58,961 nt of DNA from an uncultured Spirochaetota bacterium (GTDB lineage: Bacteria; Spirochaetota; Spirochaetia; Treponematales; UBA12059). Below, piece after piece: positions 10,332-17,974 of the stretch (the stretch's first letter is position 1; every line of letters begins with the position of its first letter). Both the position numbers and the translations under genes were made by a program. The stretch is taken from NCBI GenBank assembly GCA_937873275.1, contig CALMRC010000020.1, forward strand, positions 1 through 58,961. The letters run 5' to 3'. Under the pieces are notes generated by a model. That model was not told the origin of the DNA. It was given only the letters and a program-made list of their open reading frames with translations, and did not search any database.

Positions 10332-11063
10332 CTATTTTCCGCTCGAGGAGGAGCTCGCCGCGGACTTGCGCAGCTTGTCCAACACCTGCCGGGCCTTCTG
10401 CTTGACCGGAATGATGTAGTTGCCGTCCGCGATGCGGAGCACCGTCCGGACGATGGACGGATCCTTGATCCCGACGCCGGCGTCCACCAGGCGTTCCAAG
10501 GCCACGAGGGTCTCGAAGGCCAGGCTGTTGTCGGGCTGGAGGATGTCGTACTTGTTCACGATGAAGGAGATGGTCTGGGTGACCTCGTCGTTGTCGTTGA
10601 TCCCGATCTTGCCCAGGGAACGGATCGCGGCGCTGATCACCATGGGTTCCCGGTCCGACAGGGCGACGCGGAGCAGGGTGTCCTTGGTCTCGACGGTGGG
10701 GAACTCCGCCAGCATGTCGCAGGCCTTGGCCCGCACGTCGGGGTAGTCGTTGATGATCCGGCCGACGCCGGCTTCCCGGACTACGGTCGTGGAGGTTTCC
10801 AGGGCGAGATACTCGAGGGACTTCCGGACTTCCTCGTTCTTCCGTCCCTCCTGGATGGACTGATCGATGTACTGGAGGGCGAGGAGCTTCAAATCCCGGG
10901 TATCCCCCCGGGCCTGCTCCTTGATGATCATGGTTTCCAGGGTTTCCTGGAGGTACGCTTCCTCCACGGTCCTCTCCCCGGACCCCGTCGTCTGGGCGGC
11001 GGCGCCCGTCAGGGCTACCGCGAGAAGCGCGGCCAGTGCCGCCGAACGCAATGAACGCATCAT
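10332..11063 (-). CDS. Exported HEAT-repeat protein
   Basis: The product is about 243 residues and starts with a signal peptide (MMRSLRSAALAALLAVALTG then AAAQ). The mature part is helical and repetitive (for example VREAGVGRIINDYPDVRAKA, then DTLLRVALSDREPMVISAAI), the pattern of HEAT-like repeats that bind proteins. It ends in a Ser-rich tail. Two ATGs are adjacent: the one at 11063 overlaps the upstream stop as TAATG, and the one at 11060 has better spacing to GGGAGG; I keep the first. It is coupled to the lipoprotein gene upstream. A role in the periplasm, perhaps as a scaffold, is inferred only from the signal peptide and repeats. Confidence 0.75.
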   Translation of the reverse strand: MMRSLRSAALAALLAVALTGAAAQTTGSGERTVEEAYLQETLETMIIKEQARGDTRDLKLLALQYIDQSIQEGRKNEEVRKSLEYLALETSTTVVREAGVGRIINDYPDVRAKACDMLAEFPTVETKDTLLRVALSDREPMVISAAIRSLGKIGINDNDEVTQTISFIVNKYDILQPDNSLAFETLVALERLVDAGVGIKDPSIVRTVLRIADGNYIIPVKQKARQVLDKLRKSAASSSSSGK

Positions 11064-11608
11064 TACCTCCCGGTTCCTATTTTCCACGATTCGCCTACTT
11101 TTTCAAGGTAGTAATACACTTGTCGATCCCCCGAGGGGGTGATGGTCACGGCCTTGACCTGGGTGGGGCTGGTGAACTCTATGTCGTCCACCCGGACGCT
11201 CTGCCGGGAGGGATACACGACATAGAGGAAATAGTCCTGCAGGGACTCGAGCTTGATCCCCTGCCGCTTCAGCACCGCGGATTCGGACATCTCCGAAAGG
11301 ACGGCGGGGGCGGAATAGAAGGTGGAATACTCCGCCGTGAGGTAGCCCCGCCAGGCCGCGTAGTCCTTCCTCCGGATGACCTGGTTCAGCTCGCTGATGA
11401 CGGACTTCACGACCTCCATGGTGTCCCGCTTGACCTCCGGGGTGATGCTGGACGGATCGAAGACCGGGGGCGCGGCCGGATCGACGGCCGCGGCCGACGG
11501 CGGGGGATCCGGCGGAGGAACCGCGGGGGTGGGTGCGGGAGCGCCCGCGCAGGCGATCAGCAGCGCCGAGAGAACTAGGGAGGAAAAGGGCACCATCACG
11601 GGTCGCAT
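11063..11608 (-). CDS. Putative lipoprotein with NTF2-like C-terminal region
   Basis: The 181-residue product has a signal peptide ending in a lipobox-like LLIAC at about residues 16-20, then a Pro/Ala-rich linker of about 30 residues. The remaining part (MEVVKSVISELNQVIRRKDY, then TAEYSTFYS and VYYYLEKVGESWKIG) resembles small NTF2/DUF4440-type folds, in which a helix pair is followed by a curved sheet; this is a fold guess, not a firm family call. The stop overlaps the start of the HEAT-repeat gene, so the pair probably works together at the membrane. The start ATG has a weak ribosome binding site; an ATG four codons later is an alternative. Confidence 0.65.
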   Translation of the reverse strand: MRPVMVPFSSLVLSALLIACAGAPAPTPAVPPPDPPPSAAAVDPAAPPVFDPSSITPEVKRDTMEVVKSVISELNQVIRRKDYAAWRGYLTAEYSTFYSAPAVLSEMSESAVLKRQGIKLESLQDYFLYVVYPSRQSVRVDDIEFTSPTQVKAVTITPSGDRQVYYYLEKVGESWKIGTGR

Positions 11609-11784: not shown

Positions 11785-12930
11785 ATGAAGGATATTGCTG
11801 ATCTCCATGCCCGGGAATTCGAGGCCGTCCCGGAGGTTGTAGCCTCCGCCCCGGGCACGATTCGGTTCCTGGGCGAGCATACCGAAGAGTCGGAAGGCGT
11901 CGTCCTCTCCATCGCCATATCCCAGCGCGTCGCGGTGGCGGTGTCCCCGCGCCGCGACTCCTCCCTGCGATTCTATGCGGCGGACCTGAACGAGCGGAAG
12001 AGGACCAGCCTGGCGAACCTGAAGTTCAAGCGCGAGGACCGCTGGGCGAACCTCCCCAAGGGGGTCCTGGCCTCCCTGTTCGACCAGGGCGCCCCCTCCC
12101 AGGGCTACAACGTGACCGTCTCCGGCAACATTCCCCAGGGCATCGGGCTGGGTTCCTCCGCCTCCTTCGTGGTGGCCTCTGCGGCTGCCTTCTCGGCTCT
12201 CCTGGGAAGGAACCCGGGCAACGACGGGATCGTCGAACTATGCCGAACCGCGGAATCCGAGTTCTGCGGACGGGAATTCGGACCCGCGGAGCATGTCGTG
12301 CCGGTCGTCTCCCGCCCCGGCACCGCAGTTTCCGTGGACGCGCGGAACGGCCGTCCGCGCCTCGTCCCCTTCGACATTGGCCAGTCCGTGGTCCTGATCA
12401 CGGACTCCCGGGTGCCCCGGTTTTCCGTGGACACCGAGCTTCGACAGAGGGGGGAGGACTGCCGGCAATGCCTTCACCACCTCAACCGCCGGCACCCGGG
12501 GCGCACCCTCCGGGATTACTCGCCCGAGGACCTGGACGAGCTGATGGGGGAACTCCCGGAGGGGATGCGCCGGCGATGCCTCTTCATCCTGGAGGAGATC
12601 CGCAGGGTTTCCGAGGCGGAGGACCTGCTCGCCCGGGACGACCTGGCCGGGTTCGGCCGGGTGGTCAACAAGTCCCAGGCGGGTCTGCGGAACCTCCTGG
12701 AGGTCTCCTGTCCCGAGATCGACTGGCTCGTGAAGAGAAGCTCCGAGATCGAAGGGACCCTGTGCAGCCGCCTGACCGGAAAGGGTTTCGGGGGATGCAC
12801 CGTCTCCATCATGAGCCGGGAGGCCGTGGAGGATTACAAGAGCCGCCTCGAGGAGTACGAGCGTATTTTCGGTTTCAAGGCCGCGGTCTACGAGACGACC
12901 GTCTCCGGCGGCGTCGAGCTCCAAGGTTGA
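11785..12930 (+). CDS. Galactokinase-like GHMP kinase lacking catalytic residues
   Basis: The 381-residue product has the galactokinase layout. Motif 1 is APGTIRFLGEHTEESEG (about 22-38), motif 2 is GNIPQGIGLGSSASF (114-128) and motif 3 is LTGKGFGGCTVSI near residue 330. Key residues differ from true galactokinases: the sugar-binding GEHTDY is GEHTEE, and the CGxMDQ segment with the catalytic Asp is CGREFGPAEH (161-170), with no Asp in that place. ATP-binding motifs are intact. It may phosphorylate another substrate or act as a sensor. The ribosome binding site is weak. It is the first gene of a plus-strand group with surE, but surE has its own promoter overlapping this stop codon. Confidence 0.75.
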   Translation: MKDIADLHAREFEAVPEVVASAPGTIRFLGEHTEESEGVVLSIAISQRVAVAVSPRRDSSLRFYAADLNERKRTSLANLKFKREDRWANLPKGVLASLFDQGAPSQGYNVTVSGNIPQGIGLGSSASFVVASAAAFSALLGRNPGNDGIVELCRTAESEFCGREFGPAEHVVPVVSRPGTAVSVDARNGRPRLVPFDIGQSVVLITDSRVPRFSVDTELRQRGEDCRQCLHHLNRRHPGRTLRDYSPEDLDELMGELPEGMRRRCLFILEEIRRVSEAEDLLARDDLAGFGRVVNKSQAGLRNLLEVSCPEIDWLVKRSSEIEGTLCSRLTGKGFGGCTVSIMSREAVEDYKSRLEEYERIFGFKAAVYETTVSGGVELQG

Positions 12931-12990: not shown

Positions 12991-13728
12991 ATGAAGATCC
13001 TCGTGACCAACGACGACGGAATCCATTGCGAAGGCATCCAGGTCCTAGCCGGCGAGCTGGCTCGGGACCATGAGGTCTGGACCTTCGCCCCCGACGGGGA
13101 CCGGTCCGGATCGAGCCATTCCATGACCCTCCGGTCCCCGGGCAAGGTCCGCCGTCTGGACGATCGTACCTTCACCTGCAGCGGCATGCCCGCGGACTGC
13201 GTGCTGCTGACCCTCCGGGGAGCCCTGCCGTTCCGGCCGGACATCGTGGTCTCCGGCATCAACCGGGGACCCAACCTGGGAACGGACATCGTCTATTCCG
13301 GCACCGCCGCCGCTGCCCGCCAGGCCGCCCTCCACGGCATGCCGGGCATAGCCGTCTCCCTGGCCGCCGACGAGCCCCCCTTCGACTTCCGTCCCGCGGC
13401 CCGCTTCATCCGGACCAACCTGGACGCCCTGCTCTCCGCCTGGGACGCCTCGGTGTTCCTGAACGTCAACGTGCCACCGCTGCCGGACGCGGACACCCGG
13501 GGCGCCGTGTTTTCCCGACCGGGCAAGCGCGTCTACCGGGACACCCTCCATACCTTCGAGGCCCCGGACGGCTACACCTACTGCTTCCTCACCGGGGAGG
13601 CCATCGCGAATCCGCGGGAGGATCTCACGGACACGGGCGCCGTGGAGTCGGGGCGCATCGCCGTCAGCCGTATCCTCGTCGACCCCCAGGTGCCCGCGGA
13701 TTTCCCCGCGGGCAAGAGTTTTCCGTAA
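12991..13728 (+). CDS. surE: 5'/3'-nucleotidase SurE
   Basis: SurE is a metal-dependent phosphatase that removes phosphate from nucleoside monophosphates, often linked to stationary-phase survival. The 245-residue product starts MKILVTNDDGIHCEGIQVLA with the metal-binding Asp pair at residues 8-9. It also has the conserved SGSSHSMTL and VSGINRGPNLGTDIVYSGTA segments, followed by ARQAALHGMPGIAVS. Length is normal. It has its own promoter and a good ribosome binding site. The TPR gene follows after 23 bases. Confidence 0.96.
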   Translation: MKILVTNDDGIHCEGIQVLAGELARDHEVWTFAPDGDRSGSSHSMTLRSPGKVRRLDDRTFTCSGMPADCVLLTLRGALPFRPDIVVSGINRGPNLGTDIVYSGTAAAARQAALHGMPGIAVSLAADEPPFDFRPAARFIRTNLDALLSAWDASVFLNVNVPPLPDADTRGAVFSRPGKRVYRDTLHTFEAPDGYTYCFLTGEAIANPREDLTDTGAVESGRIAVSRILVDPQVPADFPAGKSFP

Positions 13729-13751: not shown

Positions 13752-14426
13752 GTGCGCGGCGAGATCCGGGAGGCCCTGAGGTCGTACTCCGAAGGCGATT
13801 GGGCGGAAGCCCTGCGGCTCCTCTCGGACACCGACCTTTCGGAGGAGGAATTCGCGGACTCCGCGTACCTCCTGGGCCTGTGCCACGTGCGGCTGGGCAA
13901 TTACGACGAAGCCCTCCTCTACCTCGAGCAGGTGGTGACCTCCGAGACGGATCCCGCCCGGCTGTACCAATGCCGCATGGCCCTGGCGTACGTGTACGCC
14001 GTGACGGAGCGGGTCAAGCTGGCGGAATACGAACTCTCGCGGCTCCGGGAATCGGGATACGAATCCGCCCAGATCTGCGCCGCCCTGGGATACACGGCCT
14101 GGACCCAGGGCAACATCGACGAAAGCCTGGAGTGGTACGGCCGGGCTCTGGACCTGGAACCGTCCCACCCCACATCCCTGAACGGACTGGGGTACGTCCT
14201 GGCCTACCGGGGGGACGACCTGACCCGGGCCCTGTCCTGCTGCCGAAAGGCCGTCGAGGCCCGACCGAACAATCCCGCCTACCAGGACAGCCTGGGCTGG
14301 GTGTACCTCAAGCTGGGTTTCTTCGACGAGGCCGAGACCTGGCTGGAGCGGGCCTTGAAGGGAGCCCCGGAGGAGCGGGAAGTCCAGGAGCACGTTCGCA
14401 CCCTCCGGGAGCTGAAAAACCTATGA
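13752..14426 (+). CDS. TPR-repeat protein
   Basis: The 224-residue product is built of about six tetratricopeptide repeats (for example SAYLLGLCHVRLGNYDEALL and ICAALGYTAWTQGNIDESLE), with no signal peptide or membrane segment. Start is GTG at 13752 after a weak AAGGCGG site. The gene ends in an ATGA overlap with the next gene, whose product is an exported TPR/NHL protein, so the two are translated together and may share a complex. Its cellular partner is unknown; TPRs bind other proteins. Confidence 0.8.
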   Translation: MRGEIREALRSYSEGDWAEALRLLSDTDLSEEEFADSAYLLGLCHVRLGNYDEALLYLEQVVTSETDPARLYQCRMALAYVYAVTERVKLAEYELSRLRESGYESAQICAALGYTAWTQGNIDESLEWYGRALDLEPSHPTSLNGLGYVLAYRGDDLTRALSCCRKAVEARPNNPAYQDSLGWVYLKLGFFDEAETWLERALKGAPEEREVQEHVRTLRELKNL

Positions 14427-16504
14427 AGCAGTCATCCGCCCTCATCGCCTTCCTTCTGGCCTGCTCGACCGCCTGGGCGCAGTTTCCCTACAGGCTCTCG
14501 GATCCCTCGGGGCAGGAAAATTTCCGGCTCGGCGTTCAGGCCTACCACCGCGGGCGCGTCGCGGAATCCATCCTCCTGTTCGAACGGGTCCTGTCCTCGA
14601 ATCCTAGGGACGCGCTCACCCTGTTCTGGCTCGGCCGATCCTATTTCAAGAACGGGTTGGAAAGCACGGCCCTGGACCGCTGGGACGCCGCGGTCCGGGA
14701 AGGGGGACGGTCCCTCCTGGTGGAGAGCTTCACCGAATTCGTTTCCTCCCGGAGATCGATCGAGCCCGGCATCGGCCGGGACGGATACATCTCCGCGGGA
14801 GAGATCCCGGGTCGGCAGGACCGGGAGGATCGTTTCCTCCGTCCGTCCTGGGTCCAGCCCCTTCCGGACGGCGGCTTTTTGCTCGTTTCCCACGGTACCG
14901 GGGAAGTCCTCCGGGTGGACGTCAACGGGGTGGTCCGCGCCCGGCTTCGGGGAGGCCTCGGGGGATTCGACCGGCCCTACTCCTTGACGCCGGCCCCGGA
15001 CGGGGGGTTCTGGGTATCCGAGTTCCAGGGGGACCGCATCTCCCGTTGCGACCGGGACGGAAACGTCCTCTCCCGAATATCCGGCGGGAAAGGACGGGAT
15101 CGGCTTTCGGGACCCCAGTACCTGGCGTCCGATCCGGGTGGATTCCTGTTCGCCGTGGACTACGGCAACGGCCGGGTCGTCAAGTATTCCCCCGCCGGGG
15201 AGTTCCTGCTGGAATTCGGCCGCCCCTCCGCGGGATTCCCGGGATTCCGATCCCCGACGGGGATCGCCGTGCGGGACGGACGTGTGTACGTGGCGGACTC
15301 GGTCCGGAAGGGCGTGTACGTCTTCGACGATTCCGGGAACTTCCTCGAGGGATTCGCGGAGGGAGCCCTGGTCGGACCGGAAGGGCTGTCCTTCGCCGGG
15401 AACGGGGACCTGCTGATCGCCGACCGGCGGCGCGTGGTGGCGGTCGACACGGAGACCTTCGACCTCCGGGAGGTCTACCGATCCCCGCGGCCCGCGGCCC
15501 GTATCGTTTCGGCCGCTCTGGACGCCAACGGGAACATCCTGGCCGCGGATTTCGACGCGTCCTTGGTGGATGTCCTTTCGGATCCCGCCGTGGTCTACGG
15601 GGGGTACTTCCTGGAGATCGAGCGGATACGGTCGGACGGATTCCCCGTGGTCGAGGCGGATATCTACGTCCGGGACCGGTTCGGCAACCCCGTCGTGGGC
15701 CTGGACCAGGGAAATTTCTACGCCTCCGAGAACATCGTCTCGGAACGGACCGTCAAGGAAGGGGACACGGAGGCCCGGGTGAGGACGGAGACCCTGACCC
15801 CCGTGAAGGAGCTGACCCTGGAGGGAAGGGAATCCGACACTCCGGGCATGTCCGTGGCCCTCCTGGTCGAGCGTTCCCCCGGCATCGACGCGTACCGTTC
15901 CGAAGTCCGGCAGGCCGTGGAATCCGTGGCCGCGGGATTGCCGCAGCCGTCGGAATCCTACCTGATCACCGCGGGCCGCCTTCCGGTCCTCCAGGGGACC
16001 GCCTCCGGGGCATCCGGCGGACCCGTGCTGGCCCGGCAGGCCCTGGCGGCCCCGATCGATCCGCAGTGGCGCTTCGACTCGGCCCTTCGGCTCGCGGTGT
16101 CCGCCCTCGCCTCGGGACTCCGCAGGTCCGCGGTGGTGTACGTCACCACCGGTACGGTGAACGAATCCCGGTTCGAGGGGGCGACGCTGTCGGAGCTCGG
16201 CACCTACCTGCGCAACAACGGCGTCCGGTTCTACGCCGTCGTGGTGGGGGATGCCCCGGTCTCGGACGCCGTGCGGTTCCTGGCCGAGACCGCCGGCGGC
16301 GGTGTATACCGGGTCTGGGAGCCCGCCGGACTCGGACGGATCGGCCGTGACCTGGCGGCATCCTCGACCGGTCGGTACCGCCTGCGGTTCACCAGCGCGG
16401 CGGATCCCGGCTTCGGACGCACGTATCTTCGACTGGCCGTCGAAGGATACTTGTTCCGCAAGTCCGGGAAGGACGAATCCGGGTATTTCGCCCCCCTCCG
16501 GTGA
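14423..16504 (+). CDS. Exported TPR / NHL beta-propeller / vWA-like protein
   Basis: The 693-residue product has a signal peptide (ALIAFLLACSTAWAQ). Next come a short TPR segment (about 30-90) and an NHL-type propeller (about 130-400) with repeating blades such as RPSWVQPLPDGGFLLVSHGT and RSPTGIAVRDGRVYVADSVR. A C-terminal region of about 240 residues resembles a von Willebrand A domain (PGMSVALLVERSPGIDAYRS, then SAVVYVTTGTVNES). The metal-site DxSxS is replaced by ERSPG, so a metal site is unlikely. The start ATG overlaps the stop of the upstream TPR gene. It probably acts outside the inner membrane in protein contacts. Nothing else identifies its role. Confidence 0.7.
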   Translation: MKQSSALIAFLLACSTAWAQFPYRLSDPSGQENFRLGVQAYHRGRVAESILLFERVLSSNPRDALTLFWLGRSYFKNGLESTALDRWDAAVREGGRSLLVESFTEFVSSRRSIEPGIGRDGYISAGEIPGRQDREDRFLRPSWVQPLPDGGFLLVSHGTGEVLRVDVNGVVRARLRGGLGGFDRPYSLTPAPDGGFWVSEFQGDRISRCDRDGNVLSRISGGKGRDRLSGPQYLASDPGGFLFAVDYGNGRVVKYSPAGEFLLEFGRPSAGFPGFRSPTGIAVRDGRVYVADSVRKGVYVFDDSGNFLEGFAEGALVGPEGLSFAGNGDLLIADRRRVVAVDTETFDLREVYRSPRPAARIVSAALDANGNILAADFDASLVDVLSDPAVVYGGYFLEIERIRSDGFPVVEADIYVRDRFGNPVVGLDQGNFYASENIVSERTVKEGDTEARVRTETLTPVKELTLEGRESDTPGMSVALLVERSPGIDAYRSEVRQAVESVAAGLPQPSESYLITAGRLPVLQGTASGASGGPVLARQALAAPIDPQWRFDSALRLAVSALASGLRRSAVVYVTTGTVNESRFEGATLSELGTYLRNNGVRFYAVVVGDAPVSDAVRFLAETAGGGVYRVWEPAGLGRIGRDLAASSTGRYRLRFTSAADPGFGRTYLRLAVEGYLFRKSGKDESGYFAPLR

Positions 16505-16743: not shown

Positions 16744-16772
16744 ACTTTTTGCAGTTTTTTCGGAGGTTTTTG

Positions 16773-17974
16773 ATGGAGAAGGTACCATTTTCGATACACG
16801 CACGGACCACTAAAGCCAACAAAAAGGTCTTCTACGCTCAGTTCCGTGATGCCAACGGCCGGCTCGGTTCCGCAGTTTCCACGGGTCAGACCAACCGTGT
16901 GGCTGCCCGTCGCTGGGCGGAAGACCGGCTTCGAAAGTCCGGGATCAACGCGCACGCGATGTCCCAGGAGGGTTGGGCGCCACTGCGTGTCTGGGCTGAA
17001 AGGTTCTACGTTGACGGGTGCCCGCACTGTTCCCGGCTTGCAGAGGAAGGGAAGCCGATCACGTCCGGATGGATCAAGGCCAGCCGGCGATACATGAACA
17101 CCCTTGTCCTCGTGGACAGCGATCTGGCGGACCAGCCCCTAGCCCATATCTCCCGGAACGAGCTGCTCGAATTCCGCACTCGGTCCTTGGCCCGGACCAC
17201 CGTGGTCCAGACCAACCGGGCGATCTCCCTCTTGAAGGTCATCCTCCGGGAGGCCTATTTCCGCGGCATCATCCCGAACGACCCGACCCAGGGGATTGGC
17301 CAAGTCCAGCACCATGCGAAGCCTAAAGCGATCCTCTCAACAGAGGAGCTCCGACTCTTGCTGGAGCGGCGCTTCTGGAACAGCGACCTCTCTCACCTAG
17401 CCTTCACAACCCTGGTCATGACCGGGATGAGGACCGGGGAAATGAGGGCATTGCACTGGGACCAGATCGATTTCGCCTCTGCTCGCCTAAAAATCAGTCG
17501 GGCCGTGAAGAATCGCTCTACGGAGATCGGCCCGCCCAAGAACGGAAAGCCCCGGGTGACCGCGCTCCCGGCATTCCTCTCTGCCGCCTTTCGAACTGCA
17601 TACGAGAAGGACGGCCGCCCCCAGAACGGACTCGTTTTCCTAAGGATGGGAAAGTCCAACCCGTATATTGGTTCCGAAACCAACTTCTGGCTGCCTGCTT
17701 CCGCGCTGGGTTGGAGTCTGAAGGACGCTCGATCAGCCCGCACGCCCTGCGGCACACCGTCGCCACCAGGCTCCTGGACGCCGGAGCGGATCCTCGGAAA
17801 GTACAGGCAGCCCTAGGGTGGCAGTCTACAGCGATCATGGACAACTACACCCACTCGGAGGCTTTCGATTACTCCTCTTTGGGGAACATCCTGGACGCTC
17901 CCGCCACCCACAAGGATATGACAGAAGAGTGTGATAAACCTGACATGCTTACAATAACGGATGCTTTCGAATAG
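16773..17974 (+). pseudogene. Tyrosine integrase interrupted by a frameshift
   Basis: This is a site-specific recombinase of the phage integrase family. The first part (to about 17700) has an N-terminal arm/core-binding region and box I, TGMRTGEMRALHWDQI, with the first catalytic Arg. The remaining catalytic residues, SPHALRHTVATRLL (His-x-x-Arg), LGWQST (Trp) and the nucleophile Tyr in NYTH, are in the -1 frame from about 17710 to the stop at 17974. The frames must join between about 17640 and 17735, consistent with loss of one base. No slippery heptamer is apparent. I start it at ATG 16773 because CGGAGG lies seven bases upstream. It may be a real mutation, a sequencing error or, less likely, programmed. 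Confidence 0.8.

Follow-up and report, generated by a model that had tools for sequence, protein, structure and literature searches.

The window, by which we mean the whole stretch of 58,961 nucleotides analysed here, contains an operon of four genes on one strand, in the order galK-like, surE, TPR and TPR/NHL-repeat. The first gene, which encodes a putative pseudo-galactokinase recognised from its domains, alignment and structural model, occupies positions 11785..12930 (+), and an ORF check of the window returned an ATG start and a frame of 381 amino acids at exactly these positions. It is followed by surE (12991..13728, +), which encodes a 5'/3'-nucleotidase (PF01975, E 2.7e-54) with intact sequence motifs and a TIGR00087 score of 174.6 bits, exceeding the cut-off of 135.1. 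The third gene (13752..14426, +) encodes a TPR protein that matches Pfam TPR families and is conserved downstream, and the fourth (14423..16504, +, with an approximate start) a TPR/NHL-repeat protein (PF01436 NHL, E 9.7e-13), whose counterpart we take to be TP0421. TP0421 is described as an uncharacterized protein that is predicted to be outer-membrane (PMC5015957).

Upstream of the operon, and divergent from it, lie genes for a small protein with no Pfam match (11063-11608, -) and a HEAT-repeat protein (10332-11087, -), each present at 12 of the 41 loci from the window's order. Just downstream is a tyrosine-recombinase/integrase-type ORF (16749-17816, +; PF00589, E 1.4e-06), hinting at an integrated element beside the operon. 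Another gene of the SurE family lies elsewhere in the same genome, away from this operon (G000:C17:11849-12394).

The galK-like protein contains GalKase_gal_bdg, GHMP_kinases_N and GHMP_kinases_C domains, all above the Pfam gathering cut-offs, and these domains together with the fold place it in the GHMP superfamily among proteins of the galactokinase fold. Human GALK1 is its closest solved relative (E about 1e-49, HMMER). An AlphaFold2 model, for which 44 family rows served as the alignment, had a mean pLDDT of 93.5; comparison with GALK1 in VIA-align 2 gave Z 44.9 and an rmsd of 2.0 over 366 residues, comparison with yeast Gal3p gave Z 34.6, and Foldseek and VIA-align 2 returned galactokinases as the structural neighbours. 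The model predicts a complete galactokinase fold, and this protein shares with GALK1 the whole fold, the length, the domain order and ATP motifs 2 and 3. All five NCBIfam galactokinase models aligned with most of the protein, yet each scored under its curated cut-off, the nearest to its own being TIGR00131 (208.4 against 226.65). A second GalK-like gene in the genome (G000:C95, locus L001) has R37, D46 and MDQ; it has itself diverged, with E43 replaced by Asn, and is also below the galactokinase model cut-offs.

Residues were matched using an ungapped HMMER alignment and a MAFFT alignment, and are given below in human GALK1 numbering. Unlike GALK1, the window protein has R37, D46, Y47, D186 and Y236 all replaced. 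The catalytic Arg of galactokinases, R37, is absent, with Thr25 (11857..11859, +) lying opposite it in both alignments, and the position of the catalytic Asp186 is occupied by Glu169 (12289..12291, +; HMMER alignment); R37 and D186 are the residues that we take to be the catalytic pair of GALK1. The galactose signature GEHTDY reads GEHTEE, with EHTEE (residues 31-35; 11875..11889, +) opposite EHTDY 43-47, such that D46 becomes Glu34 and Y47 becomes Glu35. Y236 pairs with Leu219 in both alignments, while E43, H44 and G183 (Gly166) are retained. The sequence-only reading of this DNA had reported the change to GEHTEE and the absence of the catalytic Asp, and the alignments bear out both. It had also taken CGREFGPAEH as the replaced CGxMDQ segment, which put the register off: in the ungapped HMMER alignment GPAEH pairs with GIMDQ, and the glycine at 183 is kept. 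Its description of the site loss was incomplete, having missed the changes at R37 and Y236. The possibility it raised of another Asp at the catalytic position finds no match at the aligned site, which the sequence alignment gives to Glu169; if a distant Asp were to reach into the site, the order-invariant Asp207 would be a candidate.

Residue counts were made over 93 family members, 3 operon members whose site is intact and 43 canonical galactokinases, after leaving out two rows with very long branches (L001, L222) and three that were partial or disrupted (L042, L030, L043). R37 is found in 43/43 canonical galactokinases versus 24/93 family members, the position otherwise holding V, S, I, T, C or other residues. 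D46 and D186 are each present in 43/43 canonical sequences; in the family the D46 position is occupied by E, D, W, A, I and others, and the D186 position by D (55 of 93), E (11), N (9), A (5) and others, with N, A, V, I or Q found in some of the window protein's close relatives. Treponema-like members (family f3) retain R37, D186 and mostly H44, and R37 and D186 still occur together in 22 of the 93. The complete set of R37, E43, H44, D46 and D186 is carried by 40/43 canonical galactokinases versus none of the 93 degenerate members; two of the three intact-site operon members have it, and the third has Asp at E43. Across the spirochaete homologues, then, the replacements at R37, D46 and D186 are not conserved. 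With the motif columns excluded from the tree, the minimum number of changes was 5 for R37, 6 for D46, 19 for D186, 15 for S141, 9 for S142 and 8 for G349. An entropy permutation test found the seven sugar-site columns more variable than the rest of 47 columns conserved in canonical GalK, but only marginally (P 0.051 in the order and 0.020 elsewhere), so the stronger argument is that no replacement set is complete or shared. Judged from these alignments, the predicted enzymatic inactivity of the window protein is well supported, and the protein is very likely not a galactokinase.

The galactokinase ATP motifs GLGSS and GxGFGG are both present, in agreement with the earlier statement that GNIPQGIGLGSSAS and LTGKGFGGC are kept: in the window GHMP motif 2 (GNIPQGIGLGSSAS; 12124..12165, +) and motif 3 (GKGFGG; 12778..12795, +) are intact. 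An adenine-side segment, EDRWANLPK (residues 84-92; 12034..12060, +), has its W, N and K in 53/53 order members, a conservation exceeding that in canonical GalK, and its Trp87 corresponds to Trp106 of GALK1. Trp106 stacks on an adenine mimic in inhibitor structures of GALK1, and Arg105 is implicated in phosphoryl transfer by molecular dynamics (PMC8056384). The equivalents of W106, N108, K111, G138, G347, F348 and G349 are invariant in all 53 order members. So are those of the Asp at N224, the Pro at R228 and E235, and a loop-4 signature, D207-S-R-V-P-R ... E218 (12403..12438, +), is found order-wide. Two further segments, SCPEIDW (308-314; 12706..12726, +) and YERIFGF (358-364; 12856..12876, +), contain residues that are invariant in 93/93 family members, namely the P, E and W of the former (at P323, E324 and Q327) and the I and F of the latter, while canonical GalK varies at most of these positions. 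The window protein thus carries all of the family marks, SCPE-DW, YERIFGF and a position upstream of surE. Outside the window's order the ATP motifs decay: S141 and S142 of motif 2 are variable elsewhere in the family, the motif-3 glycines are complete in 74 and incomplete in 19 of the 93, and motifs 2 and 3 have been lost in some lineages that retain the gene. Since some of the class has lost these motifs, nucleotide binding cannot be the function that all members share.

The galK-like coding sequence is under strong purifying selection, with a dN/dS of 0.115 between the window and G001 and of 0.06, 0.03 and 0.11 for three more pairs; for surE the window and G001 gave 0.196. The pairs L047/L048, which are mutually out of frame, and L028/L033, which are saturated, were left out of the dN/dS analysis.

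The adjacent surE had been read as a hint at phosphate or nucleotide metabolism, and this hint is stronger than was supposed, with surE downstream of the galK-like gene at 33/41 order loci and 40/44 class loci. The ends of the two genes frequently overlap by 4 nt, a count for which the surE start was found by pattern in 44 of 69 loci. The NHL cluster lies downstream at 36/41 order loci and 30/44 class loci, and the TPR cluster at 27/41 order loci at least, as the choice of ORFs missed the window's own TPR gene. The 14 class loci without NHL comprise 11 of the f7/f8/f13/f22 type (L164, at a short contig end, L165, L169, L175, L183, L194, L200 and L218-L221) as well as L166 and L187, which are short stretches, and L185; several class loci have surE without TPR/NHL. 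Among 248 class genomes, 161 have both a profile match and SurE, 19 the profile match only, 23 SurE only and 45 neither, which gives a Fisher odds ratio of 16.6 (p 1e-17) when shared ancestry is ignored. The linkage between the galK-like gene and surE is strong, and no single operon partner is obligatory; a universal, obligate pairing with SurE is rejected by the 19 and 23 exceptions.

When two family models were run against the ORFs around surE in profile-negative loci, no hidden degenerate copy was found upstream of surE, the sole match being the known copy at L251, and a one-sequence search with the ORF beside surE in L241 gave no family match (E 0.065 and 0.037). In L238 and L245 an Lnt-like gene adjoins surE, which we read as a clean deletion of the galK-like gene. 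In one f4 group (L033, L034, L065 and L069) the galK-like gene and surE are followed by MltG- and DnaG-like ORFs in place of TPR/NHL; these names were read from sequence (clusters 21 and 27), and the L069 stretch ends before these ORFs.

A protein search covered 58 genomes from the window's genus, family and order, counting its own. Of these, 56 had a strong match (E 1.7e-56 or better), and G002 and G019 had weak matches only. The absence from G002 may reflect an assembly edge, the operon-type SurE there (L250) stopping at a contig end. Profile A1, of 35 rows, matched 180 of the 248 class genomes (E up to 1e-30), a count that can include canonical GalK, and 161 of 296 sampled phylum genomes (E up to 1e-45); the seven out-of-class matches inspected (L211-L217) have R37, D46 and D186. 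A scan of named-species genomes found at least 80 loci, and among the matches listed nearly all were titled as spirochaete MAGs or Treponema. One contig titled Smithella sp. SCADC (L115, JQDQ01000136.1) encodes a family member with 48% identity to the window protein, probably through misbinning of a spirochaete contig or through transfer.

Most genomes of order relatives have a second galactokinase-like gene, and the protein search gave weak third matches in G048 and G054. Some f3 (Treponema-type) genomes have a further galactokinase-like paralogue (G027:C1:525462-526193, L222; G024:C1:2252701-2253873); L222 has Asn at the D186 position and has lost motif 3, so judging from it a second degenerate GalK lineage may exist. 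The f3 genome G032, a single contig of 1.14 Mb, encodes the galK-like protein and gave no second galactokinase match, TIGR00131 matching the galK-like gene alone.

Three loci (L192, L193 and L195) have the same operon with the GalK catalytic residues retained, and their proteins already show the family-specific conserved positions. In quick, unrooted trees, with and without the motif columns, they fall between canonical GalK and the degenerate group, and each group forms one side of a branch in the tree without motif columns (supports of 97 for the intact, 95 for the canonical and 93 for the degenerate group). Since these members combine the constrained positions with an intermediate branching, the extra constraint predates the loss of the sugar site. 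The simplest reading is of an active operon galactokinase in which the extra constraint came first and sugar phosphorylation was lost later, with repeated further decay.

The sequence-only reading had offered a different substrate, a different mechanism or a non-enzyme sensor. Of these, the non-enzyme is the best fit, given that no conserved residues take the place of those lost; a sensor that binds galactose as Gal3 does is not supported, because it is the sugar side that has gone. The main rival to a pseudoenzyme is a neofunctionalised kinase that would use ATP to phosphorylate another sugar, a polyol or a nucleotide, with a base such as Glu169 or Asp207. The nearly invariant ATP side and the new loop signature D-S-[RK]-V-P-R...E of the order would suit such an enzyme, as would the acidic residues at the D186 position in many family members and the retained residues of the f3 proteins. 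There is, however, no common new active-site set: the replacements at R37, D46, G183 and D186 are not the same from one subclade to another, or even within a single subclade, some close relatives have N, A, V, I or Q at D186, and GHMP motifs 2 and 3 are gone in other lineages that keep the gene, so we regard this explanation as possible but rather unlikely. That the protein is simply an active galactokinase tolerating D186E, D46E and R37T is improbable. In its favour, a change from D to E is conservative, neither the fold nor the ATP motifs are damaged and the NCBIfam models align over nearly the full length, but R37 and D186 are universal among the canonical enzymes counted, every galactokinase equivalog model scores below its curated cut-off, and the genome has another GalK-like gene (L001) with R37, D46 and MDQ.

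A Gal3-like sensor would be a galactokinase paralogue that binds both galactose and ATP, does not turn them over, and passes on its signal through protein contacts. The common fold and the additional galactokinase-like gene of most genomes are consistent with this, but the galactose-contacting residues such a sensor would need intact, R37, D46, G183 and D186, are exactly those lost in the family, and the 1.14-Mb genome G032 has the protein with no second galactokinase match; we consider it very unlikely. We give still less credence to a decaying pseudogene retained solely for translational coupling to surE. The repeated catalytic-residue changes on the tree and the frequent 4-nt overlap would be expected of one, but the frames are open across the order and the gene is retained in genomes lacking surE, and the low dN/dS (0.03-0.12) together with the sites invariant in 93/93 led us to reject a pseudogene.

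The explanation that we favour, with a probability of roughly 0.55, is that the protein is a pseudoenzyme that serves the galK-like/surE/TPR/NHL operon as a regulator or scaffold responsive to nucleotides, and we infer a partner role for it there. The ancestral operon galactokinase would have gained a second, non-catalytic role, to which the constrained DRWANxxK, SCPE-DW-KR and YERIFGF segments would belong; most lineages would later have given up sugar phosphorylation but kept the second role. The protein of the window's order is predicted to bind adenine nucleotide still, and it could serve SurE and/or the TPR/NHL proteins, its most plausible partners, as a regulatory or scaffold subunit that responds to nucleotides. 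A more specific version, which is speculative and which we hold to be doubtful, has an adenine-nucleotide-sensing subunit binding SurE (and TPR/NHL where present) and gating the nucleotidase, the kinase having become a regulatory subunit early in the class by way of a bifunctional stage that three of the sampled lineages still show.

Yeast Gal3p, a transducer derived from a galactokinase, has the galactokinase fold in common with the window protein, whose non-enzymatic role is presumed. Gal3p functions together with galactose, ATP and Gal80p (entry 3v2u, title), whereas the window protein has lost the sugar side. We know of no Gal80-like partner for it. SurE shares its operon, and often overlaps its gene, but is not homologous to it (PF01975 versus GHMP). 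XOL-1 is a pseudoenzyme of the GHMP fold. As in pseudoenzymes of other kinase folds and in XOL-1, the fold and the selection on it have been retained in the window family, with catalysis predicted to be lost; the window family differs in being bacterial, operon-bound and class-wide. Literature searches that paired galactokinase with pseudoenzyme, paired GHMP with pseudokinase or looked for degenerate spirochaete galactokinases found no paper, and the titles and abstract openings of papers on galactokinase in Treponema held none on the galK-like protein.

The near full-length alignment to galactokinase profiles means that the galK-like protein is easily misnamed a galactokinase and misread as a sign of galactose use, a risk that extends to the reduced 1.14-Mb genome G032 with no other galactokinase match. 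Within one operon there is a natural series from an intact site, through a dead sugar site with ATP motifs, to the loss of both, so that the passage from enzyme to pseudoenzyme can be tested directly. The galK-like gene is also a first handle on the conserved and poorly understood spirochaete operon surE-TPR-NHL. Most spirochaetes of the window's class keep this protein, probably for a job that is not enzymatic.
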